Assembly: GCF_036669915.1 (NCBI RefSeq) | Contig: NC_089325.1 | Coordinates: forward strand, 12,604,735-12,668,734 | From: Pocillopora verrucosa | Taxonomy: Eukaryota; Cnidaria; Anthozoa; Scleractinia; Pocilloporidae | Direction: 5' to 3' | DNA: 64,000 bases | Shown here: positions 26,101-62,907 of the stretch, in pieces | Numbering within the stretch: the first letter of the stretch is position 1 | Layout: each line of letters starts with the position of its first letter | Made by a program: the position numbers and the translations under genes | The notes under the pieces: generated by a model | What the model was told of the DNA's origin: nothing | Seen by the model: only the letters and a program-made list of their open reading frames with translations | Databases searched by the model: none

Positions 26101-26520
26101 CCCCTCTACTGACTGTGGGCTAATTGTCAGCTGACAGATAACTGACAGGCCACCAACATAACAAACAGTTTACCAACAGCTTACTTGTTGCCATTTCTCC
26201 TATTTTTTTGACCAGCCACTGCCTCCAAAAGACCCCTTAAAGCAATCTTCCTCTTTTTCCTGTAGCTTTTAGTGGCATCTGGGGCTAAATTGACTCTGTC
26301 AGATGATTCACATGGAACAGGAGATGTTGGTTTCTGGTACAACAACTTGCCCCAGCACTTAGCAACTTACAGGGTCAGTGAACTTTACTATCTGGACAGA
26401 GCACAGGTGACCAATGACTCAGCAGGACAAGAAAAAAGAGTTGTGTCTAAAAAGTTAACAGACTGTTGGAAGCATCCATTTTGGGAAAAATGTGTGGAAA
26501 CTATAAAATATGACAAATGA
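23126..26520 (+). CDS. PHP-domain histidinol-phosphatase (HIS2/HisJ type)
   Basis: Predicted to hydrolyse L-histidinol phosphate to histidinol, the penultimate reaction pair of histidine biosynthesis, in the cytosol. Three exons, 23126-23290, 24312-24833 and 26266-26520, all phase 0, give 313 aa, close to the roughly 335 aa of fungal HIS2. Every PHP metal-ligand motif is visible in order: LHSHSG (residue 5 on), GLSEHMPR, IGLETEV, VGSVHHVDG, IGHFDVIR and SDDSHG near the C-terminus. No targeting signal is seen. The ATG at 23126 gives the HSHS motif right after the start, as in the family; an upstream in-frame GTG is not a likely start. Most animals lack histidine synthesis, so this is either ancient retention or transfer. 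The introns and flanking genes show it is nuclear and not contamination. A different phosphoesterase substrate is possible. Confidence 0.9.
23655..23820. repeat. Degenerate minisatellite of CAGTTGGCCAACAG-like units
   Basis: In intron 1 of the histidinol-phosphatase gene. At least ten variants of CAGTTGGCC / GGCCAACAG / GTCAACAGTTGACC occur in about 150 bp, many of them self-complementary. A related short stretch lies at 26110-26190 in intron 2. Confidence 0.7.
24877..24990. repeat. Inverted-repeat element, family A, 5' part only
   Basis: Starts AACCCTGTAACTCGC and carries AATTTCTCCTTACAATATC and GATGAGTGATGAGAATAAAG. The distal half is missing or decayed. Confidence 0.65.
25096..25284. repeat. 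Inverted-repeat element, family B
   Basis: Runs from AACTCTTTAACTCCCAGAAG to TTGGGAGTTAAAGGTT. The terminal inverted repeats are still easy to pair. Located in intron 2 of the histidinol-phosphatase gene. Confidence 0.8.
26110..26190. repeat. Short degenerate repeat related to 23655-23820
   Basis: Contains TGTCAGCTGACAG and the phrases CTGACAGGCCACC and TTTACCAACAGC, all close to the unit of the larger array in intron 1 of the same gene. Confidence 0.45.
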
Positions 26521-39444: not shown

Positions 39445-40387
39445 ATGGGATCTGTTGTTTCTAACATGTATGGAGGGCTACAGTACATGATGAGTTGTGG
39501 GGGAGACAATCAAACGTTCCCTGATAATGGCCGATCGTCTCTCGCCGCGACGCCATTTGTTTGGAAACGTACCAGGTATGTATTTCACTGTTAATCGGTT
39601 TTATTTTGGTTTTTTCTCCTCAAACTAGTGTTTTGTATACCTTATGTGATTTTTGATCAAGTAAATTAAAAATTGTTTTGAGATTTTTCGGAAGAAATTC
39701 TGTTTCATCTGACGCAAGAAAAGCCGAACTGGTAATGTTGCAGCTGAGGCCGATTAAGTCTTCGTACTTTAGAAAAAAAATGGTACAGGTTTAATTTTCA
39801 TCACTGGAAGATAGTTTGCGTTTTCTTCCTTTGTATAGAAAAGAAAAAACTAATTTAAGAGGTAATCATGTTTAATTAGTAGATGAATTAAGGGACGAGA
39901 ACACCAAAACACGACGTAAGCTTTTGGTTCTTCTTGTGCGTCATACGGTTCCTATCGACATTTTATTTGCATTAAACAAGAGATCGACACACACTTGTCG
40001 TGTCCTCTCTTCATCCTTAGTCGGTTTTATTTTCGAAAATTATTCCTGTACCTACGTAAAGCGGCGAAACAGCTGAAAGCAGGCAATTATAGTACAATTT
40101 TGGTTAGCCGCAAATCTCGCGAAATATTTTATTTGTGATAAGTTGAATAATCATGATCCATGGCTAATCCAGAGAATCGCGTATTTTTTCTTTCACCCAG
40201 CTCCATGTACTTTGATGAAGATGGTGATCTAGCCCATGAATTTTATGAAGAAGTTAAACCAAACAAGAAAGGGAAGAAGTATTCCATGAAGAAAGTAACT
40301 CGGCGACTATTACCTCAAGGACTAGTTGATTTACCGTATCCAAGATTAAATGTGGATTTTCCAGTTGTTATGTGCGAGGCATATTAG
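39445..40387 (+). CDS. TUSC2: TUSC2 (FUS1) homologue, myristoylated mitochondrial protein
   Basis: TUSC2 is a small N-myristoylated protein linked in mammals to mitochondrial calcium handling and tumour suppression. Two exons, 39445-39575 and 40201-40387, join in phase 2 to 105 aa (human 110). The start MGSVVSNM has Gly2 and Ser6, matching the N-myristoylation consensus. The family signature SMYFDEDGDLAHEFYEE begins right at the exon 2 junction. It is followed by a basic stretch (KPNKKGKKYSMKKVTRR), then LLPQGLVDLPYPRLNVDFPV and a short C-terminus. The acceptor at 40196-40200 (CCCAG) fixes the exon start; the in-frame ATG at 40160 is intronic. Its 3' end faces the 3' end of the RASSF gene, mirroring the human TUSC2-RASSF1 adjacency. 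Confidence 0.95.
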
Positions 40388-40935
40388 AGAAATGACCTCA
40401 AAATTTCTAGATCTAACCTCATATGAGATGAATGTGGAATCTATCAAGAACATTGCTAAACAGCTGGGTCATTCACGGACAAGACTTGCATGAAATTCAG
40501 AATGTTACCAGAAACATTTTGTTCTTGACCACAGAGTTATTGCATCGTCACGCCAGACATCTCTAGCTACTTTCTTTCCTTGAGCTGGCAGTTACTCAGG
40601 TGACCAATTTAACTGAACTGATAGCAACAACTTCTGTTTTTTATTGAGGAAGAATGCAGATGTGTAAAATAAGACTGTGACTAAATGCCTGGCAGCTAGG
40701 TAAAGGCTTAAATTGACTAAATGCTGACAGCCAGAAATTTTCACAGAGTTTCCACTGAAAGATTCTTTCACTCTTATAAAGAATGATAGATGTTTTTTAA
40801 GAAATGTGAAGCAATTCCCCTTCACTCAGAAAACATTTCTGGTCAGACTGACAGGTATGGTCTCAAATAGACTAAATGCCTGGCAGTCAGAAGTTTTCTG
40901 CCAAATTCTTGTGGAAAACCTCATTTAAATCTGTC

Positions 40936-41020
40936 AACCCTTCACACGTGAACATCAATATGCATAATCTCCACACTGTGTTCTCTACATTTTGTAAGGT
41001 GCTGACAAGGAAAATTTGCT
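40936..41020. repeat. Inverted-repeat element, family C, 5' part
   Basis: Carries AACCCTTCACACGTGAACATC, ATGCATAATCTCCACACTG and GGTGCTGACAAGGAAAATTTG; the rest is missing. Confidence 0.6.
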
Positions 41021-42044
41021 TAACAAGCATTCTGACTGCTGGCATTCAGTCCTTTTAAGATCATGCCCAGCTGTGGGGCATTTAGCCTTTATGTTTAAAT
41101 AATGTTTGTAGTGAAAGGTTGGGGACCTCCTCTCCAATTGAAATAATTCTCTTCAGGGTATTGTTGTTTTTAGTAGAAATAACAAGAAGATTGTACAGTA
41201 TTATAAAAAAATTTGGATGATGTTTTAGTCATTTATTTTTTCTGTTATTAACTAAGGTAAGGTAGATAAATTATGTTCAAATAAGAGCTTAATTGAATAA
41301 GGAATGATGGATGTTGTGTTATTTTATACCTGTTGATGGCATGTGTAAACATTCAGCTTCTTTTAGCTTCCAGTTTCAGAGCTGAAAGTGATTTGGAAAC
41401 TTCATGTAAAGACCAAACAAGACAATAACAATTTCACTGACAGATCAAAACTGACTAATCACAACTGCTGATTGCCACTTTTTTTTTAGCCCACAATATG
41501 GCAACAAAATTGACCAACCAGTTTCTTTAAGCCAGACTCTTACTTGATTGACAGACAATTTGTTACTTGATTCTGAAGATGAATTCTTCTCAGGTTGTCA
41601 AAATGTCAATCACCTTCACAGACAGCCAAGGGTTTCAATGAGAGTCCATGAGAGTTGGCATTACGAGAAATTTGCTGTCTGTGTCAGGTTATCCCAGGGA
41701 AGGTTTTTGCTTTCCATTTCTAGCATGACCCAATGTTTTAGAACAACGCTGTCAAATGAAGTTTGTGGATACAAAGTAATAATGAAAATAGTCTTGAAAA
41801 TAGGAAAATTTTATTGCCCGGAGTTGAAGGAGGCAAACTTACATCAAAAACTGTGGAAGGAAAGGAAGATCACAGGGGTGTACCTGGAAAAATAGTTCTT
41901 ACAAAACAACATCACTCCACCCAACCCTGACAATAACCTTGGTTAATTTCTTTTCAGTTCACTCTCACCTTTTCTTTTCTTTCTTTCTTTCTTTTTTTTT
42001 TATGCTTGACCCACCAAGTCAATTTCTATTTCCAGAAATGCATG

Positions 42045-42185
42045 CAGTAATGAAAATGGCAAAATTTGTCAAACCTGCCAAGCTGATTTCACTTTGACAA
42101 ATTGGACTAAAATTCACCAAAATCATCAAATCTATGAACATTAACTCTGTTTGACAAATTTTGTCTCCTTCCATTTTCATTACTG
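42045..42185. repeat. Inverted repeat, about 141 bp
   Basis: The left end CAGTAATGAAAATGG plus AAAATTTGTCAAAC pairs with the right end GTTTGACAAATTTTGTC and CCATTTTCATTACTG. The arms are about 30-38 bp with a short insertion in one arm. MITE-like. Confidence 0.75.
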
Positions 42186-42880
42186 GGAGCACTTTTGGAC
42201 ATAGTGAAAGAAGGTAAAGATAAGGTCTGTTCTTGAGCCAAGCGGTGAATGCAGCTGGAACTCTTGGGAAGCTAAAGGTTCACAAGGCTGAGCAGTGGTA
42301 TTACTTCATATATTAGCAGAATGATTGCCTAAAGTCCATTCGGAAAACCAAGTTTACAAAACTAGTTCTAATTGTGTACGAGTTTCATCAGTTTTCAGTA
42401 CATTCTTTGTCAACAAAAAAATTTGAATGGCTTAATAAGTAAGTGCCAATAAACTTCACAGCACACAGTCACATTTTTCTCTGCAGTTTTTTAATTCATT
42501 GTGTTTTCAATACATTCTATGAAATAAGAGAATCACTTTTTGGGAAATTTCTGTCCATCTGAATTTTATATCTTTAACTAGAGATGATTAACAATCTGAT
42601 TTTGACCTTGAAAATGGGGGGTTGACTTAAACATGAGTTCAACCTTAACATGAATAAATACCGTACTCTTGCATTGAAACAATAGTCACAGAGATAAAAG
42701 TTATCAAAAGTTTATTCTTTGGGCTATTTGAGAACCACCAATTATAAATACTGATATTCATCCATTGTATTTATTACATACTGGTATCAGGGTTTTCATT
42801 AAGAAATAAGGTTACAAGGCACTGGTAAAGAGTAATAGGTAACTAAACTACATACCTGAATAAAAACTAGCTCACACACT

Positions 42881-43072
42881 TAATCTTTTAACACCTAGAA
42901 GTGATTAAGATGTATCTTCTCCATATAGTATCCATACATTATCCAGCAAACAGCTAATGAGAAAAATCAAACTTATCAGGTAGAAGTTGCCAAAGTCTCG
43001 TAAGCGATTTACAAGGAAATGTGTTGCAGCTAGCGGGGAGGATTAATGATCAGATTTTAGGAGTTAAAGAAT
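42881..43072. repeat. Inverted-repeat element, family B
   Basis: Carries CACCTAGAAGTGATTAAGATG, ATCCAGCAAACAGCTAATGAG, ACTTATCAGGTAGAAG and the end AGATTTTAGGAGTTAAAG. Confidence 0.7.
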
Positions 43073-43299
43073 TGAAGCCAGAAAATTCCATGACATGATG
43101 CATAATGAAACACCTGGCACGTATGTGTTTATTTTAAAAGTGACAATGTAAAGGCAATTGCCGTTACAATAAATTATTATCAGTGTTAAAACTAATACAA
43201 TTTGTCAATGCAGCTGTTTAAAATATCCTTCTCTATTTGTAGGTGTAAGTATTCTAAACTCATATATAATACAAAATCTATAACAGAACCTCTTTCTAG

Positions 43300-46200
43300 T
43301 TATAATCTTGCTGTTTCACCAAACTCATCAGAAGGTGGTTTTTCTTCATCACAGACTGTTTGGTTTGGTTGTACCAGTGCCAAAGCCTGCTCTAATCTTT
43401 CCTTGTAAAGTCTGTACTTTTCTTCTACCTGTTAAAGTTAAAAATTTAAGTTTGTTAACCCTTAAACTCCCATGAGTGACCAAGAGATAATTTTTCCCAA
43501 CAACATAATTGATACAATATCAAGCAGACAGGTGATGGGAATGAAGAAATGCAAACTAAGAAGAGACTTTTACTTGATCCAATACCAAATTCTCCGAACT
43601 AACATCAGAAGAATTGTGAGGCAGACAGTAAGGAGAATTAATAATGAGATCTTGGGTGAGTGATCGTGGGTTCCAGGGTTAATGAAAAAGATAATATTCA
43701 ATAGCTGCCTGTGGAATAAAAATCTAATCTTTGAGTGTTGATGATATCTCTCACATGTGAATGAAGTAAACAAGAGAGAAATTGAGATATTACAATCATA
43801 TCCTCCAGCAATTACGACAAGCTGATCTACATGAACCCTTTAACTGAATGACAATTTCAAAACACATCCCAACAGGATCAAATGTATACATCACCTGAAT
43901 GTAAATTCAGCTTGTCAAAATAATTTGAAAAAAGGTTTTTTTTATAAAATTTAAGCAAAAAAGTAAAGAAACCTTTCATGAAAAGTTAAAATGATCTGTT
44001 GATAAATCTGGTAAACATGACAACATTGTAAAGTGTAGTTAGGGCGCCCCAGTACTATCTCCTCTGTGTAAATCCAAGTGGAATAAACTTAGTCTGTAAA
44101 TCACAGCATAAACCTCGAGTTGGGGTCAATAAGAGGTTTTGTGGCTACCATGATCATCTAGCAGTTCTTCTTTCTACATCAATATAAGCCCACAGATACA
44201 CAAAAGGGGCACTGGCATAAGCCAGCTTACATTTGGGGCTCAGAAATTTGTTCCTGTGAGCCCCCATTTAAAAATTCCTCTGTTGCTTGTGGGGAAATGA
44301 AAGTTACATTCATTCTAATATTTCATAAATACCTAGTATATATATATGACAATGATGGTTGATATAACATTAAGCCACTGACCTGCAATATGTGTTCCTC
44401 CTCTTCTTTGTCCAGTATCTTCATGAAATTTTGAAGCTCTGGTATGGAGAATACCTCCCACTGAAAAAAAATGTCACACAGCTGTCAAAATGAAAATAGG
44501 GGTTGGAGTATTCTGCGGATTACACTACCATAAATCTTTTTTTTTGGGCTATCTTTTTTGACTCACATGATAATGAATTCAACCAAAAGGACAGGCTACA
44601 TAGATTCATTTTGATTCATAAGTTAGATTCATCTATTTGTTGTCCAACCTATAGGCCATTTTACAGTTGCGAACTCAGTTGCCAAGCCTTTGATTTGGAG
44701 TGAGGCTGAAGGTGACCTTGTTGTGATAGAGACCAGTATCTAGTTAGCATGAAAACAAAGTAATTTACATTTGCAAAGCAGCAAGGTTTGTATTATAACA
44801 AGGTCACCCTTGGCCTTACTCCTATTCAAAGGCTTTGCAACCAACCCAACAACTGTAAAATGAACTAGATTAATCTACTTCTTGTCAAACCAATTTACTT
44901 CATATAACTTTCAAAGGGCAAAAATTCTAACTGTAAAAATGTTAATTGTAAAGTTAACCCCTGGGTTAACAAAATTTTAATTTGAAAATTTGGCTGTACT
45001 TACCACAATATCTCCTGTTTCATTCTCCTGGAGTGAGAATTTGTGTCTTATATCTGCTCCACCCCAAAGTAACCTTAGCACCAGGGGTTTCTCAAAGTCA
45101 GACATCCGACGAAGAATAACTGAAAGAAAAATCATCAAAAAAGACTTTATATAATGGGTTAAATACATTGCATCAAACTCTACCTAGTTTCACAGAAAGC
45201 ATGTAAAACACTGATTAAAAAAGAAACATACTTCACATGGTTTTCTTATGCCTTTCACATGACAAATTTCGCAAGTAAGATTGTGACATGTTATACAAAT
45301 GTGTTATGAAAATGGTGTGAAATGTTTCACAAGATATTTCAAACACTGTATCACATAATTGCTTCTGGTAATGTAGACCATTATTGGAAATGAAAGCATT
45401 CACTCAGCCATTTGATGGAAGCCTAAAAATTTGAGCACTAAGTCTGAAAGGCAGAGAGGTAATTATAATCTTTATTTGTATATACCAAACAGGGGAATAG
45501 TGCTATTTAGTTTTACTCCATTTTTAAACAAAATATTAAGCACATCATTCAGTTTTTTTGCCAATCATGTAAACTGGTCTTGCTTATGTTGTTTCCAACT
45601 TTTGCACACAGCTTATGCAAGCAATATGACATTCAGACAAAGTTGTGGGATATATTAAGAAAACTAGAGGCCAAAATACTGAAAACTAATTAAAAGTGGT
45701 ATAATAAATCCCTTGATCAATGGTTTAACATTTAATAATGATGGACATTCTGCTCATTGCTTGTAATTTTCTTAGTAACTCCAGGGCTAAGAAAAACATG
45801 TAACTTGCAAAATATACACATGTGTTTAGTGTTAAACTATTGATTAAGTTGTATGAAGTGCTTAGCAGGTAAAGAAAAACCTGTTGAAACCTACTATGGT
45901 CATCTTCTTCCTGGTAACACTCAAATAATGCAAATTTTCTTGGATTATCAGCAACTTTGAACTTCTTGAGAAGAGCTACAATGACCTAGGGAAAAAAAAA
46001 AAAAGGAATCTTAAAACAAAAATTCCAGCAATATTAACTGATGGTCACTAAAAACAAAGAGATTGGTTTCATTTAGTTTTCTTTGAAGAGAATTGTGGTC
46101 TGTGTCAGATGTATTGGCAAGCAAGTGAAACATAGCAGTTGAATGTCACCTGGAAGTTGGAAAAGGTGTTAAATGAATTAATTGTTTAGAAAAACCCAAT

Positions 46201-49200
46201 TTTGAATGTTAACCTCTTCTTGGAACTTAAAAATGTTGCAGCTCTCTCTGCTCAAGGATCAACATTCAACAGTACATTTTCCAAAATTCCTCCAGTGGTA
46301 AATTCACCACATTCAGAATCAATTGCAGACAATCAACACAGGATTGATTAAAGAACACCTATAAAAGGCTTAACAATTCAAACAAAAGTTGATAGAAAAT
46401 AAACAAATATGCATTCAGAGAGACCCACCTGATGAACAGTAGTTTCACTGGTTACATGTAAAGCTTTCTCAGTCTCAAGTGGAAGGAAAAATGATGTCCG
46501 CTGAGAAGTCTATGAGATAAGACTCAAGATTAGCTCTCTATTTGATGAAAGGACAAGGCTGTGTTGAAACCTTCAAAATGATATTTCCAGCTTTAATGTC
46601 TAAATAAAGCAGTGCTCCAAGCTGCAACTGCTTTGCTTACAGAGACCAGAAGTAACGATTTTGTTACACTATTGGCAGTATTAATTGCTAGTTCAGCAGT
46701 CATCCAATCAGCTGTTTTTTTTTGTGTTTTGACTAAATCTTTACTACGATCTAAGTAAGTGGAATGGTGGCCTTATGCTTAACCCTTTACCTCCAACCCA
46801 TGAGTGACCAAGACAGAATTTCTCCTTACAATATCAATACAACATGAACCAGATAAGTGATGAGGTTAAGGAAAAATATCAATTTGGGGATAATTAGTTG
46901 ATCCAATACTAAATTATCTCAACTAACAATATAAGAATTGTATGGTTGACAGCGAGGAGGATTACAAATTTGATCTGGGAGTGAAAAGGTTAAAGTGATG
47001 GACTATGGATGGGAGGTTCAGGTTTGAAATCCATCTGGGTCAATGTGTTATGCTCTTGAGCAAGACACTTACATGTACCTCTCACAGTGCTTCTCTCCAC
47101 CCAGGAGTAAAATGGGTACTTGCGAATTGTTAAGAAAGCTTGGCGAAAAGCTAGGGAGTAATCTTGCAATGGACTAGCATCCCACCCAGAGAGGGGGGAG
47201 GGGGTGGTGATACTCCTTATTGCTTCATGCTAAGGAAACTGAGATAAACCTTTGTTGCATGGGCCACTGGCCTTGAGAACAGATTTTACCTTTAACTTAA
47301 TATAATTACAATCACCTTCTGATTCAGATCATCATCATCCTTTGACTTTACAGCAGTCTGAAAAATTGACAGAGGTCTCTCTCCTTCGATGATGTGGATT
47401 GGTCGGAGTAAGTTCATATTAACACGGATAAAGCCTTGGTATGTGTCCTCAGTCCTCTGGCAAAAAAAACAAGCTTTGGATCAGAAAATATAGAGCAAAC
47501 TTTAAGGGGGGTCTTGATGGAGAAAGAAAAATCTAATTGCTAATTCTCCCCTTCAGCTTTTATACAATTCCTTGAAAATAAGTTGGGAGAATTTGGTGTT
47601 AGCTCAAAGTAACAACTTCTACCTGACAAGTTTGGGTTTTCTCATTTGCTGTTTGCTGGATAATGTATAGATAAGATAATGAGAAGTTTCATGTGAATCA
47701 CCTCTGAGAGGTAAAGAGTTAAAATTTTGACCACTTAATTGCTAATGGTTTATTTCTCTCCATTATGGTTAAAAGAATTTTTTTACTGCATTTTTTCTTT
47801 GACTAGCCCCTTATAATTTGTCCATTTTTATGGCTAACAGCTAATTTTTTTTTATTCTTTTACAGTTATGAGTAAACCCCAATGAGACCCTCTTTAACTG
47901 TTCAACCCCTAAGAGTGACCAAATTCTAATTTCTCCTTACATTACCACCCCTGCATCAAACATTAAGGCCATGAGAATCAAGGAAATGATCACCAACTTA
48001 GAAAGCTCTTGATTTTCAAGCAAATTCTCCTCATCAGCGCTTGAGGAAATGTACATAGAACAGTAAGGAGAATATGCAAACTGATGATAGGGTGTAAAGG
48101 GTTGACGCACTTACAGTTCTGACGTCAGGCTCTGGTTGTGTGAAGGTTGGATAAACCTGTCCACAGGATAAATCTCTTTCTGGTGGATAGTGCAGTACAT
48201 TCTGTTAGCACTTATCCACTGGATAGTGATTTATCCACTGGATAGCGATTTATCTGTTGGATAGCATTCTCTGCCCTTCATACAACCTGTCCCAGATTGG
48301 CACTTTTTAATGTATGCTACGCCAAGAATTCAAAATCTATCCACAACAATTACAAATTTGACATGACTAGCTCTCCCAACAATTCAGTAAAAAAACATCA
48401 TGGTTACCATAGACATTATAAGTCCAGTTGTACTTGAATTGTATTCATCAATTTTCTCACGAAGGAGGCTTCCTGTTGGGGAGTCTGTGTACAGAATAAA
48501 CGGTTCTTTCCTCTTCTCTCCCTGTAAAGATTCACAAGAAAGACAACTTCAGTTTGGCTATAAATCATACAGATAGCTATACAACCAAAGGTAACCCTTT
48601 AATTCCCATGTGTGACCAAGATAGAAATTTCTTTTTACAACATCAATAAAATATCGAGCAGAAAGCTGATGAGAGTGAAGGAAAATTCAAATTAGGGGAT
48701 TATTAGTTTATCCAACATCAAATTCTCCAAAACGACATCATATGAATTGTAGGACAGACAGTAAGGAGAATTACAAATGAGATCTTTGGGAGGTAAAGGG
48801 TAAAGAAAAAGCTGTGTATCACTCATTCGCAGATAATTTTAAAGACAGTTGTAACTTGGCTGTATACCAAGTGGAGCCCACAAGTTTGAATAAGATTGAA
48901 CTGGGAGAAATTAAAAACTGATACAGAGAGGAACTGGCCAGAAGGTTGGAGCCTATGGCCCTCCTCCTCCCTCTAGCCACAGAAATAAATAAATGCCTGA
49001 TTTCAGTTCAGGCTTCCTTCAACATTATCCCTTAATATACCATTTTATCCCAGTTAATCTCCTCTCCAACACACTCTAAGTCCCTGAAATGAAATGTATT
49101 TGTGTAACCCAACAAAAAAAACCCTTCACCTAATTACAGCCCAAGTATTATTTCAGGGAGTTAAAATTTACTTTAAATTACACCTTTTTGAGAGAAAAAT

Positions 49201-52200
49201 ATCCAAATTCACTTTCAAATGGGACTTTACCCAAACTGTATAGGAGACCAGGACATTTGCTCTGACTACACAGTCACAAAAAACATATGGACATGCAGGG
49301 ACAGTTTATATACAGCTGCACAAGCACTTAGCCACACTGCCCACTCAAAAGTGATGACATTACCTGATCTACAAGATGCAATGTCTTCATGGTCACCTCA
49401 TCAACTGACATCATTCTTTCATACAGCCAGCCTCCAGTACAGTCTAAATCCACATCCTCTTTGCATCGTCTGTGACAAGTATACTTGCAATCTGTAAACA
49501 CAGAAATAGGAAAATTCCCCTGAATTAACAAAGCTCCCAGCCTCAAAGCTTAATTTACAAAGACTCAATCATCAATTCTTGTGGACAGGAAGTGAAAATG
49601 AAAGCATTAAAACACAATTCTTGAAAGTTTCAAATTTAGCTTCAAAGTGAAATTGTCACCTTACATTTGAGCAGTACTACTGTCACTGTTTTTTTCTTTG
49701 CTTTGGGGTTATTGAAAATGCTCTCGCTCCTATTTAGATCAAAAGAAACCATTGAAGGTGAGCTTTTCAGAGAAAAAAATAACTTGAAGATGCCAGCATA
49801 AACCAGACAGGAACAGTAGGAATGAAAAAAAATTAACATGGATTGAAGAAAGCTGATTGGAAGAAACTAAACCCATCTGAGGGTTTTATTTTATTGTAAA
49901 TAGAAATAGCCTATTTAAGATTATGTGTGCCATTCGTTGAAAATGAAATATATTTACATTTCACTCTAAGAACAGAAAATCAAAAAAAAAATTTTCTTAC
50001 ATTTAGAAATTTTTTACTAGCAACACAGTAAAAATTCCCTGCAGAAAAAAAGGCCTTACTTCAAAGATAGCTCAATAATGACAGTCCATTCTTGAGAAAT
50101 TAAGAAACAAATATTGATTGAAAGCAGACTCAAATGTAAATGACTAAATTGGATGTTAGAAGATGAATAATCTTCTATTTTTAATTAACAAGAGGTGAGA
50201 AGGTGTCAATTTTCTGATTAAATCTCATATTTTGGTCTCCACCCATTAAAAAATTCATTTCTTCACTTATTTTGCCCAATGAGACATTTTGGTTGTTTAA
50301 TAAATGTGTATTTGGTGAAAAAACTTCAGACTTCTCATCCACCACAGTTGATAATGAAAGGATGATTCATCTCTTTTGAAGATTATATCTGATCAAATGG
50401 AAGCCACTGGATTTCAAATTCTTTTAACTGTCACATAAAAAACTCACTACAAAAATGTGGTCCTTTACTGACAGAAAAAAGCAATTTGATCCTTTCTGTA
50501 GTTAAAGGTAATTTTTGATTATTACAAAATTGCATGCAGCTGAACTCACAATGTTTTTTTGCACCATATACTTCTCCTTAAAAATTAATTTTGTCCCAGC
50601 CTTGCCATGCATTTGTACTATAATGACAATGGTCACAAGATGACATTGAAATAACAATTTTTCTGATTACTTTGCAAACTCTCGTGTCTATGTAATATTT
50701 ATTAATTTAATTACAGCTTTATCAATAATAAAATACAGAAGAATGTAAATGAAAAAATTGTGAGGTAAGCATCCCCTTGTCAGTAAAATTATAATATATT
50801 AAACTGTCTTGAGTTTGCGTTTTTTTCATTAAACAAGTGGCTGTCCCTACTGACAAGGGAACATCTCCATTAAAAAAAGAGCACCTACAAATGACAGAGA
50901 CAAAGACAGGTTCTCTGATCTATTACATACGGACCAATACAGGCCGTACATTTTTCACTTCAGTGGACAATTTTAGGGGTCATCAGTAAAATGAACATAA
51001 AAAAATTCTTTTAGCTAACAGTTCCCTTCAAAGAATTTGTTTAGAAGAAGAGAAATATTTTGTTACTTGCCTGGAACTGATCAATAGTTCAAATTTCAAG
51101 GCCAAAGGAAGGTGAAGGAAATTTGTGAATATTGATTAAGATTATGTAATATTGCTTAGGATTCAAAGCTTATGATTTAAAGTTACAATAATATTATAAT
51201 TCAAGTACAGGCACAAGCGCAAATGAAGGTAGATCTTTGTGAATGCAGAAATTAGTTTCAAAACTGCCATAAGACTCTTCTTGTCTTAGAAGAGGAACAA
51301 TTTATACGGATGTTCCACACAATATAATCGACAATTCCAAATTGCACCATCTGCTATTCAAGAGTTTTAGCTATTAAATGGGATGTTTACATGGCAATAA
51401 AGATTTCTTCTGCTGAGAATTTTTTAGGTATACTTAATTAAACATGATTACTGGAGTAAGAAGGAGATCGCCTCTCCCCACCCTCCCCCCCCCCCCTCCA
51501 GCCTCTCTTCTCAACCAATACCCAAGTCAATGAATGCCTCAAAGACCAAACTCATACTAACCACTTAGTGACAAAAAAGGAGTTTCCTTCTACAATATCA
51601 AAACATTTTCAGAAGACACCCACATCCATACTGAGAAATGTTGTTCCATAAAACCCACAAGCAGACATTTAGGTTTCACTTTTTTTTTTATTATAAATTT
51701 TCAATTTAACACTACATCTTTTGCTTGGAAAAAGTTTGTTTTGGCAAGGTAGTGTTGCTTCATCTTATAGCCAAAGCTAAGAGAGGTTTTCATTACTCAC
51801 TCTGTTATGTTTCAGAATTAACAATAGAGCACTGAATCTGCTACAGTTTTATGAATTAAGCAAGCAGTCTCCTAAGACTCCAAACTATTCCTGCTTAACT
51901 TTGCCATCCAGAAGTGACCAAAATACAATTTCTCCTAACAGTGTCAATGAATTTTAAGGCAGAAAGGTAAAAAGAAATGAAAAAAATTATAGCCAGGGGA
52001 TGATCCTGGATTTATTGCCAAATTCTCACAACTAAACTTAAGAAAAATTTGTAACAAACAGGATGGAGAGTTGACAACCAGATCTTAGGAGTTAGGGGTT
52101 TATAAAGACTATTTTTAGCTTCAGTTTGACTCTCCTTAACTTTGGTCTTTGGTCTAGACTTAGACTTTAAAATTTTTCTTATTGAGTTTTAAGTTCATGG

Positions 52201-53575
52201 AAAATAAATTCTGGGTTGGGAAAATTTGAAACACATCTAATCTACATGCCTTTAATATTAGGGGTTTAGGAAATCATCAGCCTCTCATAAACATTTTAAT
52301 TGATAAATGCCTTGCAATAATTAATATTTAATATAGCATGTGAATATTTCTAGCCACTTCAATATTTAAGTGAATTCCTGAACAAGAACCTAACCAATTC
52401 TGGGATAGGGAAATTTGAAAAGCATCTAATATATATGGTTTTAATATTAGGGGTCTAGGAAATCATTTGTCTCTCATAAACATTTTAATTGATAAATGCT
52501 TAGCAATCATTAATATTTTATGTAGCAAGTGAATGTTCCTAATCACTTCAATATTTAAGTGAATTCCCGAACAAGAAAACTAACCAGTTAAAAATAGCTG
52601 GCATCGGTTTACTGAGAACAAGGCAAAAAAACAGTTAAACGGATGAGTGAATTTAACTTGTTTTAAATATTTTTTGCGATCATTACGAGGTATACATTAC
52701 AAGCGAATCATTTGTTATGAGATTAATTCGTAACGTACATATTATTGTACGAGATTCACCTGTGTTTCAGGATCAGCAGATTAGTATTTTCGACCTTACT
52801 TCCCTTGTACTTACCAATGGACTTTGCCAAAGGGGAAAAAAACCTTACTTTCCACTGGTTGATATAGTTCCAGAAGCTACGATCAACATACGTATATGGT
52901 GTGTTTACCTCTTATCGAATTTACAATATGCGCCAACCGGCTGTTGTTGAGCAAACAGCCAGATGTGATACAAACTAGAATTATCCTTTGCTTGCAATTC
53001 AATCCTTAATATGGTGAAGAAACACTTAATAATTACTCACTTTTGCAGCGCACACATTGCTTGAAAAGTCCCCAAATAAACTCTCCACAACAATCGCACC
53101 ATGTAGGATTTCGTAGTTGATGTTGAATAAACGTATGTCCTCTCCCGACATGTCTAACTAGCGCTTTCTCGTCGCTAACATTTTCCGTGGTCACAGATCG
53201 TTTTATGGTGCTTCGTTTCTTAGGTCCTTTCCTATTGACAAAGTTCGAGATGAAATCTTTCACTGGATTACTTGCAGTATGTTTCTCTCCGGGCATATGA
53301 GGTACAGATATGGCGCGATTTCTGTCCCGAACATCGTTCGCCATGTGAGATTTGATTTGAGCACGTTTTCTATCTAGAGAGTTGGGATCTCGAGGTTTCG
53401 TTGCTTCGTTCGAGAACACATCGTCACTTTCCATTTCAAAACCAGTTGATCGTGTTAACAAATAAAGCAAGGCAAACAAACCTCTTTCAAAAATGAGCAA
53501 CAATCTCGAAGTTAACCACTCGAGGATTCTATTCTTGGGCAAATTACGATTGCCGTTCTGCAATTCAGTTCGCAT
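43300..53575 (-). CDS. RASSF: Ras-association domain protein, RASSF1/RASSF5 (NORE1) type, with C1 and SARAH regions
   Basis: Scaffold that binds Ras-like GTPases through its RA domain and MST/Hippo kinases through SARAH. Exons (minus): 53041-53575, 49364-49491, 48408-48521, 47316-47456, 46429-46500, 45895-45985, 45004-45119, 44383-44460 and 43300-43428. They join in frame to 467 aa from the first ATG, or 420 aa from a second ATG at 53434 (MESDDVFSNEA), which I think is the likelier start because the extra segment is hydrophobic and atypical. The C1 zinc finger is complete across exons 1-2: H at the start of HTFIQHQLRNPTW, then CDCC, CKNC, H and two further Cys. The RA domain spans exons 4-7 (GFIRVNMNLLRPI, FFLPLETEKALHVTSETTV, VIVALLKKFKV, EKPLVLRLLWGG). 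SARAH lies in exons 8-9 (FSIPELQNFMKILDKEEEEH, VEEKYRLYKERLEQAL). RASSF1 versus RASSF5 cannot be resolved by eye; one pre-duplication gene is likely. Confidence 0.93.
43457..43680. repeat. Inverted-repeat element, family A (RASSF intron 8)
   Basis: Runs from AACCCTTAAACTCCCATGAG to GTTCCAGGGTT. Shared phrases are GTGACCAAGAGATAATTT, AAATTCTCCGAACTAACATC and CAGTAAGGAGAATTAATAAT. Confidence 0.8.
44656..44864. repeat. Imperfect inverted repeat, about 209 bp (RASSF intron 7)
   Basis: The left arm CATTTTACAGTTG...CAAGCCTTTGATTTGGAGT...AAGGTGACCTTGTTGT pairs imperfectly with the right arm ACAAGGTCACCCTTGGCC...ATTCAAAGGCTTTGCAACC...CAACTGTAAAATG. The arms are about 70 bp around a spacer of about 60 bp. 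MITE-like. Confidence 0.75.
46781..46991. repeat. Inverted-repeat element, family A (RASSF intron 4)
   Basis: Carries AACCCTTTACCTCC, GAGTGACCAAGACAGAATTT, CTCCTTACAATATCAATAC, TTTGGGGATAATTAGTTGATC and the end GGGAGTGAAAAGGTT. One of the more complete copies. Confidence 0.85.
46998..47290 (+). repeat. tRNA-derived SINE
   Basis: Box-B-like AGGTTTGAAATCCATC (47022-47037) is followed by GCTCTTGAGCAAGACACTTA, CTCTCCACCCAGG, a central AATGGGTACTTGCGAAT and the tail GCAATGGACTAGCATCCCACC. It shares this order with the minus-strand copy at 58535-58767 and the interrupted copy at 10935-11425. Confidence 0.75.
47535..47722. repeat. Inverted-repeat element, family B, reverse orientation (RASSF intron 3)
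   Basis: Carries GTTGGGAGAATTTGGTGTTAG, CAACTTCTACCTGACAAG, GCTGTTTGCTGGATAATGTAT and the end GAGGTAAAGAGTT. Confidence 0.7.
47904..48103. repeat. Inverted-repeat element, family C, reverse orientation (RASSF intron 3)
   Basis: Runs from AACCCCTAAGAGTGACC to GGTGTAAAGGGTT and carries GAAAGCTCTTGATTTTCAAG, the complement of the family C centre. Confidence 0.75.
48165..48285. repeat. Short tandem repeat of a TTATCCACTGGATAG unit
   Basis: TTATCCACTGGATAGTGA, TTATCCACTGGATAGCGA and TTATCTGTTGGATAGCAT follow each other at a spacing of about 19 bp. The same motif recurs around 5985-6060. Confidence 0.8.
48593..48801. repeat. Inverted-repeat element, family A (RASSF intron 2)
   Basis: Runs from AACCCTTTAATTCCCATGTG to TGGGAGGTAAAGGGT and carries GACCAAGATAGAAATTTC and CAGTAAGGAGAATTACAAAT. 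Confidence 0.85.
51894..52100. repeat. Inverted-repeat element, family A, degenerate (RASSF intron 1)
   Basis: Carries TTAACTTTGCCATCCAGAAG, GACCAAAATACAATTTCTCC, CAAATTCTCACAACTAAAC and CAGATCTTAGGAGTTAGGGG. Confidence 0.65.
52207..52585. repeat. Direct tandem duplication, period 189 bp (RASSF intron 1)
   Basis: Unit 1 (52207-52395) and unit 2 (52396-52585) both begin AATTCTGGG, share CATAAACATTTTAATTGATAA and CACTTCAATATTTAAGTGAA, and end near GAACAAGAA..CTAACC. By eye they are roughly 85-90 percent identical. Confidence 0.85.
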
Positions 53576-54287: not shown

Positions 54288-54590
54288 GAATGACAGGGTC
54301 GAGTTCGACTATCTTGGTCGGGCTGTGAGCAACCGCCTATTCACAGGTGCTATCCCACTACTGTTTGACGCGGGAGCTTTTGCCTGCTGTGTTTCCACCC
54401 TGGGCCGGTTCGCTCCTCTTTAACCAACCTGGAGAACTCAGATTCCTCTGTGTTCACCATATTGACGCCAAACTTAGCGCGGACACCCAATCTACATAGA
54501 ACGACTACCCCCAGGAATCCCGCCCTCAAGCCATTCAGCGACCCCAGCCTCCAAGCAGCTGGATTACAGACGTGCGCCACTACGCCCGGC
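54288..54590 (-). ncRNA. Signal recognition particle RNA (7SL)
   Basis: Read on the minus strand, the sequence matches metazoan 7SL RNA end to end at about 300 nt. It starts GCCGGGCGTAGTGGCGCACG, followed by the Alu-domain UGUNR motif within GTCTGTAATCC and GGAGGCTGGGG. Next come ATTGGGTGTCCGCGCTAAGT and CAATATGGTGA, then GAACCGGCCCAGG. The SRP54-binding helix 8 loop is GGAAAC..AGCAGG, followed by AGTAGTGGGATAGCACCTGT. A T-run terminator (TTCTTTTC, near 54284-54290) ends the gene. Upstream (54591-54660) there is a TATA-like CATAAATT about 20-27 nt before the start and CTTCCGG further out, as expected for an RNA polymerase III gene. The RNA scaffolds SRP for cotranslational targeting to the ER. 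A retrocopied pseudogene is possible, but the key loops are intact and no poly(A) tail is seen. Confidence 0.93.
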
Positions 54591-55922: not shown

Positions 55923-58900
55923 TCAAAGCCCTAAATCCTCGGTCTCACTGTAGGCTTCCCTGCAGGAATCCCCTGCACATGTCGCTAGATCCACCAGGCG
56001 AGAGTGTTTTTTTGCTAGAAATTTCGGAGCAACTTTTTTGACGATATTCGTCAGTTGATCAGGATCTTTCTTGATATCGTACAGCTCCACAAAGGCCTGC
56101 ATTGGAATACACGAAAAACAACAACGTTTGAAAACTCAGAGAAAGAATCGAGAAGAGAAAGATAAAAAAGCCTGGAAAGCATTCAATGGGAAGAAATTCG
56201 CGCGGAAACACGCCACAGAACAGTGCGCAGGAAAACAAACAATCGGTGGAAAGCGCTGGAAATCGAAATCGTGAACCGAGCAACAGGTTTTAAGTTCTTG
56301 CATATAACTTCATGCCTAAACCTATAACAAGAAATAAAAATGGAGTGACTGCACACCCGTGTCGTTCCTAGTGTCCCTTAGACAAACCCATTGTAGTACG
56401 TGTTTATCTGTTCTTTGTTAAAAGTTACCTCTTTGTCGTTAAACTCACAGTACATCATATCCTCCGACGAGCTTAGAGAACGGACACAAGAATACGTGTT
56501 GTTCCAGGCGTCTTCGCACACACAGTTGGGCCAACAACACTAAAGAAGAAAACAAAATGGAAAGTATAAAGGGGGTATATAGAAGAATGATTGTTCCTTT
56601 TATTCCGTTCACCCCCTTCTCACCGAGCCTCTTCCCTCCTTTAGAGGCCTGGCTACGCAGGCTACGGCTTTCTGATCAATTATTCATTTTGCATTGGTAG
56701 AATGAAGGAAACACGTAATTGAAGCTCAAGATACATTCTAATAAACTCAGTAGTCGTATAGTTATAAAAGGCAACTGTTATTCTGCTTAACGTCAAACTT
56801 TTATGCCTCAAATTCTGTTGTATGCATCAAGGGCAATTACTTGCATAGACTTTTATTACTGGTATCTGCACACAGTCACCGTGGAAGGGAGACCATGAAA
56901 ACTATAAGTGCCAATGAGGTGGGACCCTGAACCTACCGTGTAACTGTAACTGAAATGTAGGACCGCTTGGCCGTGGAAGGTCAGGGTATGTGACTTAGAC
57001 AGAGCTAATCTCGTATCCAGATCCTACTGTGTAACTGTAACTGTAACTATTACCACATGGCAGTAGAAGGTCTGGATACTAGACTTAACAGAGCCTTATG
57101 AAAGGAATCTGGCAAATTAAAATTCTGCGACGAGTTACATACCGACACACCAGGAGAAAGCTGCGGACAGCCCCCAATCTTAAGATCTCCTTCACCAAAG
57201 TGTTGAACAAGAAAGTCCGTGCGCCAATTTGCGTTTCCCTGAATAGAAACAAAGTGCAACACTTTTCACAAATGGAAGCTATACCATGAAGGAGAAATGG
57301 CAAAATTAATTTTCAGAGGGTGAATGAGAGAAGGAGATCGAAATTTGTCCAATTTGAGGGTTTAAAAGCGTCTTACTTTGTTAGCGAAACACCGATTTCT
57401 TACAAGGAAAAAAAACGTGCAATAAACGAAAGAGAACTAAAAATGGTGGTCAATAATTTTTTTTGACCCGGTTTAGAATTGCGAAAAGTGCGGTATAGAT
57501 GTGTGAAACAGTGATTGTACTTTTTTGCTTTTCAAAAACTCACCCCTTTGTGGCTGCTCTCACCATCTGCCTTCTAAAATTGAAGAACAAAAGTGATTAT
57601 CGACTTATCTTTTCGGCAAATAGACAAACAGAATTTTTACCAAGCTACTTGTAACTTAAACTGAACTGCTAGTAGAACAACACAGAAAGAGTAAGAGAGA
57701 TATACAAACTACTTGAAGGTCTGTTACAAGTTAAAACTTTCAACAAGAGTTACACTGTGCCCAACAGGTAACCCTCTGTATAAAATTACTATACGCTGTC
57801 TGCCTAGAACAGCATCGACTGCGACGAAACGCCAAGCTATGAAAACGTTTGGAGTTAAAAGCTGAGATTAAATAACAAAAAAAAGGAAATATCCCTTGCT
57901 AAAAAGGCCTAGTGGATCAGACTGTGTCATGCTGTAGGAAAACAGGATGCCCTAAGGAATTCTTCCTTCCACAAAAATATTTTCCATTTGATTTTGCGCC
58001 CAGAATTTTCGGTTCAATGGAAAGCGCGCTTCCGTAGAACCGCATTTCGGTTTTCAACACGACTGACCATGTTACGTGTATAATTAAGTTCGTTGAAACG
58101 TTTTTCTTTCGGCAAACGCTACTGCGGGCAATTTTTAGCTGAACTATCCTCAAGCACTAATAACGCACCAAGAGAGGGAGAATCGATCGTCCGTCCATGG
58201 ACTCAGGGGCTTTCCCGCCAGCTAGCTCCACAATAGTTGGTGCTATGTCAATATTGAGAATAGGACTCTGCAAAATGTAAAACAAAATTGGTGAACGCTT
58301 AGTTTGAATAATTCCAGAGGGCTACACGATCATCTTCATAGTAACTATGTCACTACTCTGCTTGCCAAGAAGAAAACATAAAAACTAAAATATTGACAAA
58401 AAGTTCAATATTTCTTTGTATTTTAGGGCCATGCCCACATTGTGAGACTCTCATAACTATAAGGGGGTGAGTTTCTAAAGAAACTGTGGCCCATCCAGCC
58501 TGATTGTATCACTGTTTCCTTCGCATGGAGCGACTAGTAGTATTACCACTCCCACCTGGATGGGATGCCAGTCCATTGCGAGGTTACTCCCCAGCATTTC
58601 ATCAGACTTCCCTGACATTTGACCAGTAACATTAATATTTCTGGTTGGAGAGAGGCATAGTGTTTGCCCAAGGTCACAACATATTTACCCGAGTACCCGG
58701 CTAAGTCTCGAACCCAGACCTCTCGGCCCTGAGTCCAGCGCACTTTGTATGTCATCAGGTCATCATGGATGTGTTCCGAGACCGACCACTAACAGCTAAA
58801 CTTAACGTCTCTCGTCCGAACAGTCACTCTACTCGATCAACGGATTTTTTTCGGTAAGAACCACCATTACGTTTCGACATTTCACCGCCGGTATCACTTC

Positions 58901-61900
58901 TTTTAAAGGACGCAATGATCGTAACCGCACTTTATTCTTAGAATGACATTTTCACCTGTGATGTTTTGTTAGCCGTCACTCCAGGACCACGGATCATGAA
59001 GGGAACGCGTACATCAAATTCGTACAGCTGCCGCTTGTCTTGTGGAAGAGAAAACTGACCTAAACAAGCAAATGGTGTGCAGTTATGACTAGTGCTTTGT
59101 TAAAAAGTTGCCTACACTGATGCTTACACTGACTGACTGCTTACACTGACTGTTACACTGACGCTCACACGGAAAATTTAAGTACATGATAACTTGAGTC
59201 CATTATAAACTTCCTTTTTTCCAGTTTTCTGTGACTAAATTTAATTCAGGTGAACATGTTTTAACTAATCACGCTTCGCTGGTGTGATTGCAGCATAAGA
59301 TGATCACACCTTCCCATACAAGTAATAGTCACTTGTGGGTAATGACTATTTGAATTTTGTTATGTGTATCGTCATATTTACCCAGATGAAACCCATTATC
59401 TGATGAAAATATGATATAAGTATTCTCCAAGTGTTTCCCCTTGTCCAATGCCTGAACGACTTGGTCAACAAGATCATCCACTGATAACAAAGTACGCCAC
59501 CTTAAAACACAATTTTAGAATGGATCAGTTGATACAAAGCAGCAAACTTTCTTTTTCATATTCTGAGATTTCTCTATCCTTAGGGTCAGCTTAAAAAACA
59601 CACATCTTGTCTGCTTCTATAGGATGTCCAGTACCAAGAAATTCTTATTTGGGGGGATGTAATTAAATTTTTCCAAACCTGTTTCTGAAGATAGAATCTG
59701 AGGCATTGATGGATGAATCCTTCATTGGATGTGGAGTGTTTCTGATCAGCCAGTGCTTGGTCTTAAAATGACGACAAGAAAAAGGAATATAAAAATTATT
59801 GCAGGTGTGCAAATTTAGGGAAGCCTGCATTTCAGTGTCTTAATGTAATAGCTTGTTGTACAATGTACTGTGTGAGCTGGGTCTGTGAGCAGATGACATG
59901 ACACATGTTCCATGTGTCTGTTCCAACTGCTTCACTGAGTCAGCAAGGTAATCTCTTGTGTTGCCTGCTTGGGACTGCCTGCTATGATTCTGAAGAGATA
60001 AATTGCTTGTACAAGTAATTCTGGTTGGTGTGTGCAACAGGTCTGCTTTGTAACAATATCTGAAAAATATCCTCTGGTAGTTTTCAAATGAAATGGGTAC
60101 ATTTTGAAAGCAGCATAACAAATACAATAAAGACAAGTAAAGGACATGAATCTATTTTGAAACCCTTGGGTATAATATTTTTGCCATATTACAGAGTAAG
60201 TTTCAATAAAATTTCCAAGGTAATCTGGGATTGCTTTTGATTTGTTTCCCTTTACTTTGCTCTGTGATTTGTTGGGAAAACTTGTGCCAGTATCAACCTC
60301 AACCAATCAGATTTTAAATTAAAACTAATTGTGACTTGGTCACTCAGGTGTTCCCATGTGATATTATTCTTTGCTTCGATTGGCTGTTATTATTAGCTTG
60401 GTTTTCAATTTACCACATGTAATTATGATGCCCTCATAATCCTTTATGGTCAATATATTGCAATGCAGTCTTAATTTTGGATGATCAAGATAGCTGGAAA
60501 TTGGCTGCTTCATCTTCTCTTTATCATGAACTTTGACTTTTTCTCAGTCCATAAAAAGAAAGCTTGGCCATTACCTCTTGGAAATTATGTGAACAAATGA
60601 ACATGGCTCTACTTACAGGTCCACCTGCTGTGTTAAAGCTCTTTGTCCTTGGTGCCTTACTTGTATTAAAATTATCCTTGTACTGAGGTGCAGGTGTGAA
60701 AGGGGCATGGCAGGCAGGGGTGGCAACCATCATAAAGAAAGGGGGTGATGCTTCTGACTGCTCATTTATGAAACTGACTGCATGTTCTTTCTGAGAAGAA
60801 GAAACATCAATTTTGAAAGATGAAATACCACTTTGCATATTCTCAATACTGATCTCTATACATTTCCAAAGTTGCTGTCAAGGAGAATTTGTTTAACAAT
60901 CAAGAACTTCTTAAGTTGGTGATCATTTCCCTTATTCTCCTGATATCGTGATCAAGGAGTGATATTGTAAGTATAAATTAGATGCTAGTCACTCTTAGGA
61001 GACAAACAGTTAATACATATTAATGTTCAAGCTAAGCTTGTAAAGAATTAATGTTTTAAAAAATCAAGTAATTTGACAGGCTTATTCATATTCAACCAAG
61101 TGATTGTTATGGTAGTAAACTTCAACATATAATTTTACCTCAGTAGTCTCATGTATTTTAATGCTGTTTGTTTAAAGCTTACCAAAATATCTGTGAGATA
61201 GTCAGAGGCATAAGTATCTCCATGTTTCTCTGGATTCCCATTCACTGACAATGTATAGTTGTAGTACCTGGAGTTACCTACAAGTCCAACCCATTCATCC
61301 CAACCTGGGGGAACATGTTCAGGCCCCCCTACTTGCGGCATCCCGTATTGATTCAGGTACTTCCCACCGAAGAATGTTCGATAACCGAGCTTTTTCACGT
61401 AGGTGCTGACTGAGTGCTTCTCTGGCCCCTGTTGCCATCCAGGACTTGAACAACCTCCTGATATGGAGTTGTTTCTGGCACGATGATTGTGTATATACTG
61501 TCCAGTCAGAATACTTGATCGGCTCGGACAACAGAGAGGACTTGTCACAAACTGCCGGCAAAAGAAAAAGATGTTAACCTCTTGCAACTTGACCCTTTAA
61601 CTCCCAAGAGTGACCAAGACAGAATTTCTCCTTACAATATCAATACAATATCAATCAGATAAGTGATGAGAATAGAGAAAAATATAAATTTGGGAATAAT
61701 TAGTTGATCCAATACTAAATTCTCAGAACTAACATTATAAGAATTGTGTAGTTGACAGTAAGGAGAATCACAAATTTGATCTGGAAGTTAAAGGGTTTAG
61801 ATCAGTAAGCTTATTCTCTACTCTGTTTGCAACACATTTCCTAATGTGCTAACAAGGAGAATTTGTTTAGCAATCAATAGCTTCTTTCATCAGCGATTAT

Positions 61901-62907
61901 TTTCTTTTCTCTTGTGACCTTAACGTTTGATTCTGTGGTGATATTGTAAGGAAGCTGAAAGGATTAAACATAAACCACAAGCAAGGGCAAAATAAGAAAT
62001 TGTGTCATTTCTGAGGCTTCAAACCTTAACAGTTCTCATTGTTGTGGTTGGATGCTCTACTGACTTTGCCACCAAGAACTTATTGGCAGGTGGAAATCAG
62101 CTGTCACATCATCATTAAAAAAAAAACTACTTAGGTCTCACTGTATGGGAGTGTAGAAGTAACTTACCATGTTGTCAAATTTTACACCATGCTGACCGAT
62201 CAGTGTCTCAGCTTTCTTCAAAGGAGTCTATCAAAGTGGTACAAATAAAAAATGCTCAAAAGAGAATTTCTCCTTACAATATTGTTACAGTATCAAGCAG
62301 ACTAGTGATGAGAATGAACAAAAGTATCAATTAGGGGATTAACAGTTGATCCAACAGCAAATTCTCTGAACTTTCATCACGCGAATTGTATGATAGACAG
62401 TAAGGAGAATTACTAATGAGATCTTGAAAGTGAAAGAATTCAGATCGATAGCCTCACCATAAATGTCACAAGTGAATTTAAAGGCTAAAGTTTATAATTG
62501 TGAAAATTGGTTGAATTTTGAAAATATTTACACTGCTCACTTATACCTGTAAGAAGTAGGTCAATTTTAAAAGAACAGAGTGGAATATTAAACGGCAATG
62601 ATTTTGATTCGGGTTGATCGTCTACAATCACGGAAAGAACTAGAGGGCTTATTCTTTTTTTCAGTTGTAACAGAAATAGATATTTACATTCCTTCGATCG
62701 TCGTCGATCATATCGAATCAAAACTGAAGTGCTGGAATAAGCTGCGATTTCTAAATGAATGCTACTTACAAGTCCTCCTAGCACAACATCTTGATCATCT
62801 GTAAGGATAAACACGATGTTTGGTTTACTCGTCGAACTAGTACTAGCGATGGAACAGCCGGAACATAGCACGAGAAACAGTAAAATAGGATTCTGCCTCA
62901 GGGCCAT
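55923..62907 (-). CDS. GNS: N-acetylglucosamine-6-sulfatase, lysosomal (GNS)
   Basis: GNS removes 6-sulfate from N-acetylglucosamine residues of heparan sulfate and keratan sulfate in lysosomes. Exons (minus): 62770-62907, 62168-62227, 61183-61551, 60617-60790, 59679-59761, 59382-59500, 58956-59059, 58169-58267, 57544-57573, 57143-57238, 56429-56539 and 55923-56096. They join in frame to 518 aa (human 552). A signal peptide ([16 protein letters not shown]) precedes [13 protein letters not shown], whose Asp pair (37-38) binds calcium. The sulfatase signature [13 protein letters not shown] follows; Cys73 is the residue converted to formylglycine. Later motifs are [54 protein letters not shown] and [13 protein letters not shown]. 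Several NxT/S glycosylation sites are present. The C-terminus is shorter than in human. The gene is intact, with no missing catalytic residue noticed. Confidence 0.96.
58535..58767 (-). repeat. tRNA-derived SINE (GNS intron 7)
   Basis: Minus-strand reading gives box-B-like GGGTTCGAGACTTAG, then GACCTTGGGCAAACACTATG, CCTCTCTCCAACCAG and the tail GCAATGGACTGGCATCCCATC. This is the same order as the copy at 46998-47290. Confidence 0.75.
59105..59172. repeat. Short tandem repeat of CTTACACTGA
   Basis: CTACACTGATG, CTTACACTGACTGA, CTTACACTGACTG, TTACACTGACG and CTCACACGG follow one another. Intronic in GNS. Confidence 0.8.
60838..61012. repeat. Inverted-repeat element, family C (GNS intron 3)
   Basis: Carries TATTCTCAATACTGATCTC, GTTGCTGTCAAGGAGAATTTG, ACAATCAAGAACTTC and the end TCACTCTTAGGAGACAAAC. 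Confidence 0.7.
61592..61797. repeat. Inverted-repeat element, family A, near-complete (GNS intron 2)
   Basis: Starts ACCCTTTAACTCCCAAGAG and ends TCTGGAAGTTAAAGGGTT, with all internal family A phrases. A good reference copy. It is directly followed by a family C element. Confidence 0.88.
61798..61965. repeat. Inverted-repeat element, family C, abutting family A (GNS intron 2)
   Basis: Carries TTATTCTCTACTCTG, AATGTGCTAACAAGGAGAATT, GCAATCAATAGCTTC and GTGACCTTAACGTTTGATTC. Confidence 0.7.
62258..62441. repeat. Inverted-repeat element, family A, 5' truncated (GNS intron 1)
   Basis: Carries GAATTTCTCCTTACAATATTG, CTAGTGATGAGAATGAAC, TTAGGGGATTAACAGTTGATC and CAGTAAGGAGAATTACTAAT. Confidence 0.75.

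Follow-up and report, generated by a model that had tools for sequence, protein, structure and literature searches.

Whether part of the human 3p21.3 tumour-suppressor cluster is older than the bilaterian animals is the question raised by a stretch of the genome of the coral Pocillopora verrucosa, in which a TUSC2 gene stands next to a gene of the RASSF family. The stretch (the window) comprises 64,000 nucleotides of contig NC_089325.1, here called C14 (C14:12,604,735-12,668,734, without N; C14 measures 22.36 Mb), and it was examined together with 100 kb on each side, a neighbourhood of 264 kb, while the genome searched comprised 353.4 Mb in 52 contigs. The order printed for human 3p21.3 is HYAL2, TUSC2, RASSF1, ZMYND10, NPRL2, 101F6 (CYB561D2), PL6 (TMEM115) and CACNA2D2 (PMC9576590), which agrees with the starting point of the original prediction, made from the letters of the window, that human TUSC2 and RASSF1 adjoin each other between HYAL2 and ZMYND10. 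The coral locus is probably a remnant of an ancestral block of ZMYND10, TUSC2, RASSF and GNS that predates the split between cnidarians and bilaterians. In fact, the inheritance which that prediction proposed for the TUSC2-RASSF pair has been strengthened by the presence of a GNS gene next door and of ZMYND10 at a distance of 71.5 kb from TUSC2, but it does not extend to the whole human cluster.

The TUSC2 and RASSF genes

The two genes on which the comparison is built, and the stretch between them, are given in window coordinates.

39445-40387, + strand: TUSC2; two coding exons (39445-39575 and 40201-40387), GT..AG splice model, 105 amino acids
40388-43299, no strand: TUSC2-RASSF intergenic stretch; no Pfam domain above the cut-off in six frames, 291 of 2,912 bases repeated within the 264 kb
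43300-53434, - strand: RASSF1/3/5-type gene; nine coding exons, 420 or 423 amino acids, from splice model, Pfam and tree
53434-53041, 49491-49364, 48521-48408, 47456-47316 and 46500 (or 46509)-46429, - strand: RASSF exons 1-5, splice model
45985-45895, 45119-45004, 44460-44383 and 43428-43300, - strand: RASSF exons 6-9, splice model

The TUSC2 gene predicted on the forward strand was borne out both by the two-exon splice model and by the score of its protein against the Pfam family TUSC2 (PF15000), 114.6 bits with a cut-off of 25, where the match covers the conserved C-terminal part (positions 31-111 of 111). Moreover, no other PF15000 match at E <= 0.001 was obtained in the whole genome. As regards the RASSF gene, its existence, its strand and its 3' end were confirmed, while the 5' limit first proposed, 53575, corresponds to an upstream ATG, a possible start, in frame with, and in the same open frame as, the inner ATG at 53434. 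The exon model was chosen by hand among the open splice combinations, guided by the likeness to RASSF1, and the length of the protein, 420 or 423 amino acids, depends on the choice of one acceptor (46500 or 46509).

The C1-RA-SARAH architecture expected for this protein was found, since three Pfam domains lie above their cut-offs in the order C1_1 (100-150), RA (263-347) and Nore1-SARAH (356-394), and the closest solved structure in the PDB is RASSF5. In a tree of six rows, composed of the coral protein and of human RASSF1A, 3, 5, 2 and 4 (RASSF6 was left out), the coral sequence joined RASSF1A/3/5 as against RASSF2/4 with a branch support of 100/100, a value which refers to the group and not to the order inside it. 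This branch, together with the set of domains, therefore places the gene within the RASSF1/3/5 type, and not outside it, the outcome which the original prediction had named as contrary to its own reading. The identity by BLASTP to the human proteins was 40% over 309 amino acids for RASSF1A and 41% over 300 for RASSF5. When the coral protein was searched against the genome, 20 matches were obtained, nine of which are the window gene itself, while the other 11 stay within residues 76-149 of the query, in the vicinity of the C1 domain; no second RASSF1/3/5 gene was found genome-wide, the window gene being the only one whose match to the query continues past the C1 region.

TUSC2 and RASSF are convergent neighbours, with 2,912 bases between their stop codons. 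A six-frame Pfam search of the interval recognised no gene in it, giving a single sub-threshold match (E 0.08). The adjacency without any recognised gene in between was thus upheld, but the description of the interval as nothing but repeats was overstated, because 291 of its bases have another copy inside the examined neighbourhood.

GNS and ZMYND10 in the same block

Two further genes extend the likeness to human on either side of the pair.

55923-62907, - strand: GNS (N-acetylglucosamine-6-sulfatase); tblastn, rough model and Pfam Sulfatase, start and stop by eye
62826-62767, 62227-62171, 61563-61153, 60781-60623, 59770-59675 and 59502-59347, - strand: GNS homologous pieces 1-6 (approximate), tblastn
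59060-58953, 58261-58169, 57238-57137, 56536-56426 and 56099-55959, - strand: GNS homologous pieces 7-11 (approximate), tblastn
C14:12,566,069-12,572,683 (window coordinates -38665 to -32051), + strand: ZMYND10; tblastn with human ZMYND10, outside the window

GNS, which had been passed over in the original prediction, is the next protein gene on the other side of RASSF, away from TUSC2. A tblastn search of the window with human GNS gave 13 rows at E <= 1, comprising ten collinear pieces on the minus strand at E <= 0.001 (the best at 2.8e-45), an eleventh collinear piece at E 0.23 and two strays. The sulfatase fold was indicated by the Pfam Sulfatase match, and the translation contains LCCPSRSS, the active site of sulfatases being a motif of the C-C-P-S-R type. 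The rough coral model was 53.9% identical to GNS over 475 amino acids, the C-terminal part included, and 43.4% identical over 357 amino acids to the part of SULF1 used. In addition, five of the pieces returned by a genome-wide search belong to the window gene and four lie within 11 kb of each other on C5, where the one piece examined was closer to SULF1 (63%) than to GNS (48%) and is SULF-like. An assignment of the window gene to SULF was rejected on the basis of these identities and of the separate SULF-like gene.

The ZMYND10 gene was recognised from collinear pieces that span, with gaps, residues 32-435 of the human protein, eight of them at E <= 0.01 and 11 at E < 0.5 under laxer settings, and a coral piece scored 44.3 bits with zf-MYND. 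Three of the ten genome-wide matches of the C-terminal piece belong to the C14 gene (96.5, 79.1 and 36.5 bits), while the other seven reach at most 36.3 bits and extend little beyond the MYND finger. From ZMYND10 to GNS the block measures about 101.6 kb, all of it on C14.

Within this block, ZMYND10 (+) and TUSC2 (+) face RASSF (-) and GNS (-). In human, TUSC2, RASSF1 and ZMYND10 presumably lie all on the same strand, and RASSF3 and GNS are taken to be convergent. The convergence of the coral pair, as opposed to the presumed tandem arrangement in human, was observed as predicted. With the human sides and strands presumed here, it is the 3' end of RASSF that TUSC2 adjoins in either species, whereas GNS and ZMYND10 have switched sides. 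Consequently, the single local inversion invoked in the original prediction is the minimum for TUSC2 alone and does not suffice for the locus, since the different positions of GNS and ZMYND10 with respect to RASSF imply more rearrangement than one inversion.

The comparison with human involves two loci. The order of OMIM genes given for 12q14 is SRGAP1, XPOT, TBK1, RASSF3, GNS and TBC1D30 (PMC4525753), and a human duplication of 780 kb contains TBK1, XPOT, RASSF3 and GNS (PMC7823611). As TUSC2 lies by RASSF1 and GNS by RASSF3, the protein-coding genes on the two sides of coral RASSF are each, in human, neighbours of a RASSF1/3/5 gene. The coral locus thus resembles 3p21.3 (LUCA) in that TUSC2 adjoins a gene of this type with ZMYND10 near (PMC9576590), and differs from it in the convergence of the pair, in the distance of ZMYND10, with intervening genes, and in the location of the HYAL family and NPRL2 on other chromosomes. 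It resembles 12q14 in that a RASSF1/3/5-type gene stands beside GNS, matches to XPOT and TBK1 also being close to each other in the coral (PMC4525753); the differences are that the latter two are found on C11, that a gene for the signal recognition particle (SRP) RNA lies between RASSF and GNS in the coral, and that in the coral GNS lies 5' of RASSF, unlike its presumed position in human.

Common descent, chance and constraint

A number of results weigh against an inherited block. Among the genes that lie near RASSF1 or RASSF3 in human, 11 were sought; three are in the block (TUSC2, GNS and ZMYND10) and four are on other chromosomes: NPRL2 is on C11, genes of the HYAL family are on C9 and C10, and the matches to XPOT and TBK1 are both on C11. 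For TMEM115 no match was obtained in the family search, nor within the 264 kb at E <= 0.05 with a human sequence; CYB561D2, sought within the 264 kb only, gave no match; and the family searches for CACNA2D and TBC1D30 gave none either, although they are uninformative, as the control genomes gave none. Several other genes, recognised from frames by eye and Pfam, lie between ZMYND10 and TUSC2, and both the orientations and the sides differ from human. A MYND-finger match at C11:14902200-14902328 is 50% identical to the finger of coral ZMYND10 and is located at about 100 kb from a copy of NPRL2. Furthermore, the human sequences used, among them GNS, ZMYND10 and RASSF, and the human strands do not come from database records, and the comparison is that of one coral genome with human gene orders printed in papers. 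Conservation of the whole 3p21.3 cluster was ruled out by the location of the HYAL family and of NPRL2, so that the part of the original prediction which stands is the pair, to which ZMYND10 and GNS add support, and the coral locus is to be regarded as a remnant and not as the cluster.

The C11 matches to XPOT and TBK1, which serve as a tentative control, are 31 kb apart (C11:17.35-17.38 Mb) and consist of one weak exon match each, at 29.2 bits (cut-off 27) and 28.8 bits (cut-off 25.9, with one internal stop), respectively; within the 264 kb, searches with human sequences gave no match to either, at E <= 0.05 in the case of XPOT. Tentatively, XPOT and TBK1 represent another pair that human and coral have both conserved, this time from the human RASSF3 locus, and each human locus seems to combine a block of the C14 type with genes whose coral counterparts are found on C11. 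The NPRL2 matches (C11:14.67-14.80 Mb) fall into two oppositely oriented sets, separated by about 130 kb, either a duplication or an assembly artefact.

Ancient gene neighbourhoods are a known phenomenon. In the planulozoan ancestor, that of cnidarians and bilaterians, 162 new microsyntenic blocks have been counted, compared with 17, 19 or 25 in shuffled genomes (PMC8851819), so that a block of this age would be of a known kind, although roughly one in six to ten may be spurious. Like those blocks, the one described here is made up of genes that would have been near each other since before the cnidarian-bilaterian split (PMC8851819); the identities of its genes are common to bilaterian (human) neighbourhoods. 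No statement of an ancient linkage of TUSC2, RASSF, GNS and ZMYND10 was found in the literature covered, most subscription journals lying outside that coverage.

The shuffled genomes also show that some accidental adjacencies are to be expected genome-wide (PMC8851819), and the scattering of the remaining human neighbours over C9, C10 and C11 agrees with the notion that separate events joined these genes in the coral and in the vertebrates, perhaps aided by their having shared one ancestral chromosome. We consider such a coincidence improbable, because two different RASSF neighbours, and ZMYND10 as well, occur within 102 kb. With a null model confined to C14, the probability that the genes on both sides of RASSF are among six human neighbours is about 1.2e-5, and that of three given genes out of three all falling within a single span around RASSF is about 7.5e-7; these figures, in the range of 1e-5 to 1e-6 before the choice of span and genes is allowed for, are rough, given that 25,000 genes were assumed, that the result itself determined the span and that the genes were picked for being near in human. 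Even less credit, indeed very little, is given to an erroneous identification, in which a sulfatase of the SULF or another type and a RASSF gene of another group would only appear to match the human loci. GNS and SULF are close relatives, the references were not database sequences and no chain named as animal GNS occurred among 59 solved-structure matches; on the other hand, the higher and longer identity to GNS, the separate gene on C5, the union of C1, RA and Nore1-SARAH in one gene and the tree all speak for the assignments made.

A further alternative, which is in fact a variant of inheritance and whose odds overlap with those of the remnant proposed above, is that the block has been actively held together by a putative shared long-range control element, for instance by enhancers that lie within the long introns of RASSF and act on a neighbouring gene. 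Ancient microsyntenies maintained by regulatory elements in the introns of bystander genes have been described (PMC8851819), and the long introns would permit such an arrangement. Nevertheless, the gene density of blocks this old equals that of random blocks, even if some selection is still posited (PMC8851819), the orientations and sides differ, and the human block is split between RASSF1 and RASSF3. Moreover, the roles of the genes are unrelated: RASSF proteins are Ras/Hippo scaffolds, TUSC2 is a small protein, GNS a lysosomal sulfatase and ZMYND10 a cilia-assembly factor, and the block proteins themselves look ordinary. Since sides and orientations differ from human, neither a shared promoter nor read-through is likely, and inertia is taken as the default; a long-range regulatory constraint on the block is possible, and active maintenance is regarded as an unlikely cause of its persistence.

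The preferred reading thus remains that of an inherited remnant. RASSF1, RASSF3 and RASSF5 arose in the vertebrate genome duplications. In the ancestor of cnidarians and bilaterians, ZMYND10, TUSC2, RASSF and GNS would already have been together by common descent, and corals would have retained the block around their RASSF1/3/5-type gene. The vertebrate duplications would then have multiplied the locus, neighbours being differentially lost from the copies, in such a way that TUSC2 and ZMYND10 would have remained by RASSF1 at 3p21.3 and GNS by RASSF3 at 12q14. The block would have persisted through slow rearrangement and not through a shared control element. The bolder combination, in which the coral keeps the pre-duplication RASSF1/3/5 locus, the lung-cancer cluster of 3p21.3 and the RASSF3-GNS region of 12q14 are its separately eroded descendants and a putative shared control element, which could be found in both lineages, has held the block, is judged unlikely.

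Other features of the region and implications

One RNA gene of the window separates RASSF from GNS.

54293-54590, - strand: SRP RNA gene; Rfam RF00017, 264.7 bits, full length

A second SRP RNA gene was found about 40 kb beyond the right end of the window (104439-104736 in its coordinates, + strand), about 50 kb from the first, 99.3% identical to it and in opposite orientation; the two probably go back to a duplication or a conversion event of recent date. Of tRNA genes, none was reported for the window.

Elsewhere in the window, a gene of the histidinol-phosphatase HisJ family occupies positions 23048-26520 (+) and scores 140 bits with NCBIfam. Such a gene is listed for five corals among eight species compared, and the synteny around it is common to robust and complex corals (PMC6214176), which suggests that the region of the window is stable among corals. 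According to the same source, a histidinol dehydrogenase domain was detected in robust corals only, and these are the only animals with a complete histidine pathway (PMC6214176). In the genome studied here, six histidinol dehydrogenase pieces lie within about 3 kb on C12, as would those of one intron-containing gene. This gene content points to a robust stony coral as the likely source, in support of the cnidarian premise. Outside the window, and in its coordinates, frames of TPP1 (tripeptidyl peptidase) and RRP8 are close together at about -68.9 kb and -62.4 kb (by eye). Human TPP1 and RRP8 are both presumed to be at 11p15.4, with ILK and TAF10 between them; human sequences of ILK and TAF10 gave no match within the 264 kb at E <= 0.05. 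Also, several ammonium-transporter-like genes flank the window (-84.7 to -77.9 kb and 65.4 to 67.8 kb, by eye), and from 154.4 to 163.4 kb there are threonine-rich repeat frames of great length (TTAAPTEEE...), which by eye resemble mucins.

If the block is indeed inherited, the central part of a human tumour-suppressor cluster that has been studied intensively would predate the bilaterian animals, and the coral would reveal which genes flanked RASSF prior to the vertebrate duplication. The human 3p21.3 and 12q14 loci would then trace back to one ancestral locus, which leads to a prediction for amphioxus, molluscs and other cnidarians. In this context, the location of these tumour suppressors side by side would suggest that their order is an old inheritance, and not that they form a functional group.

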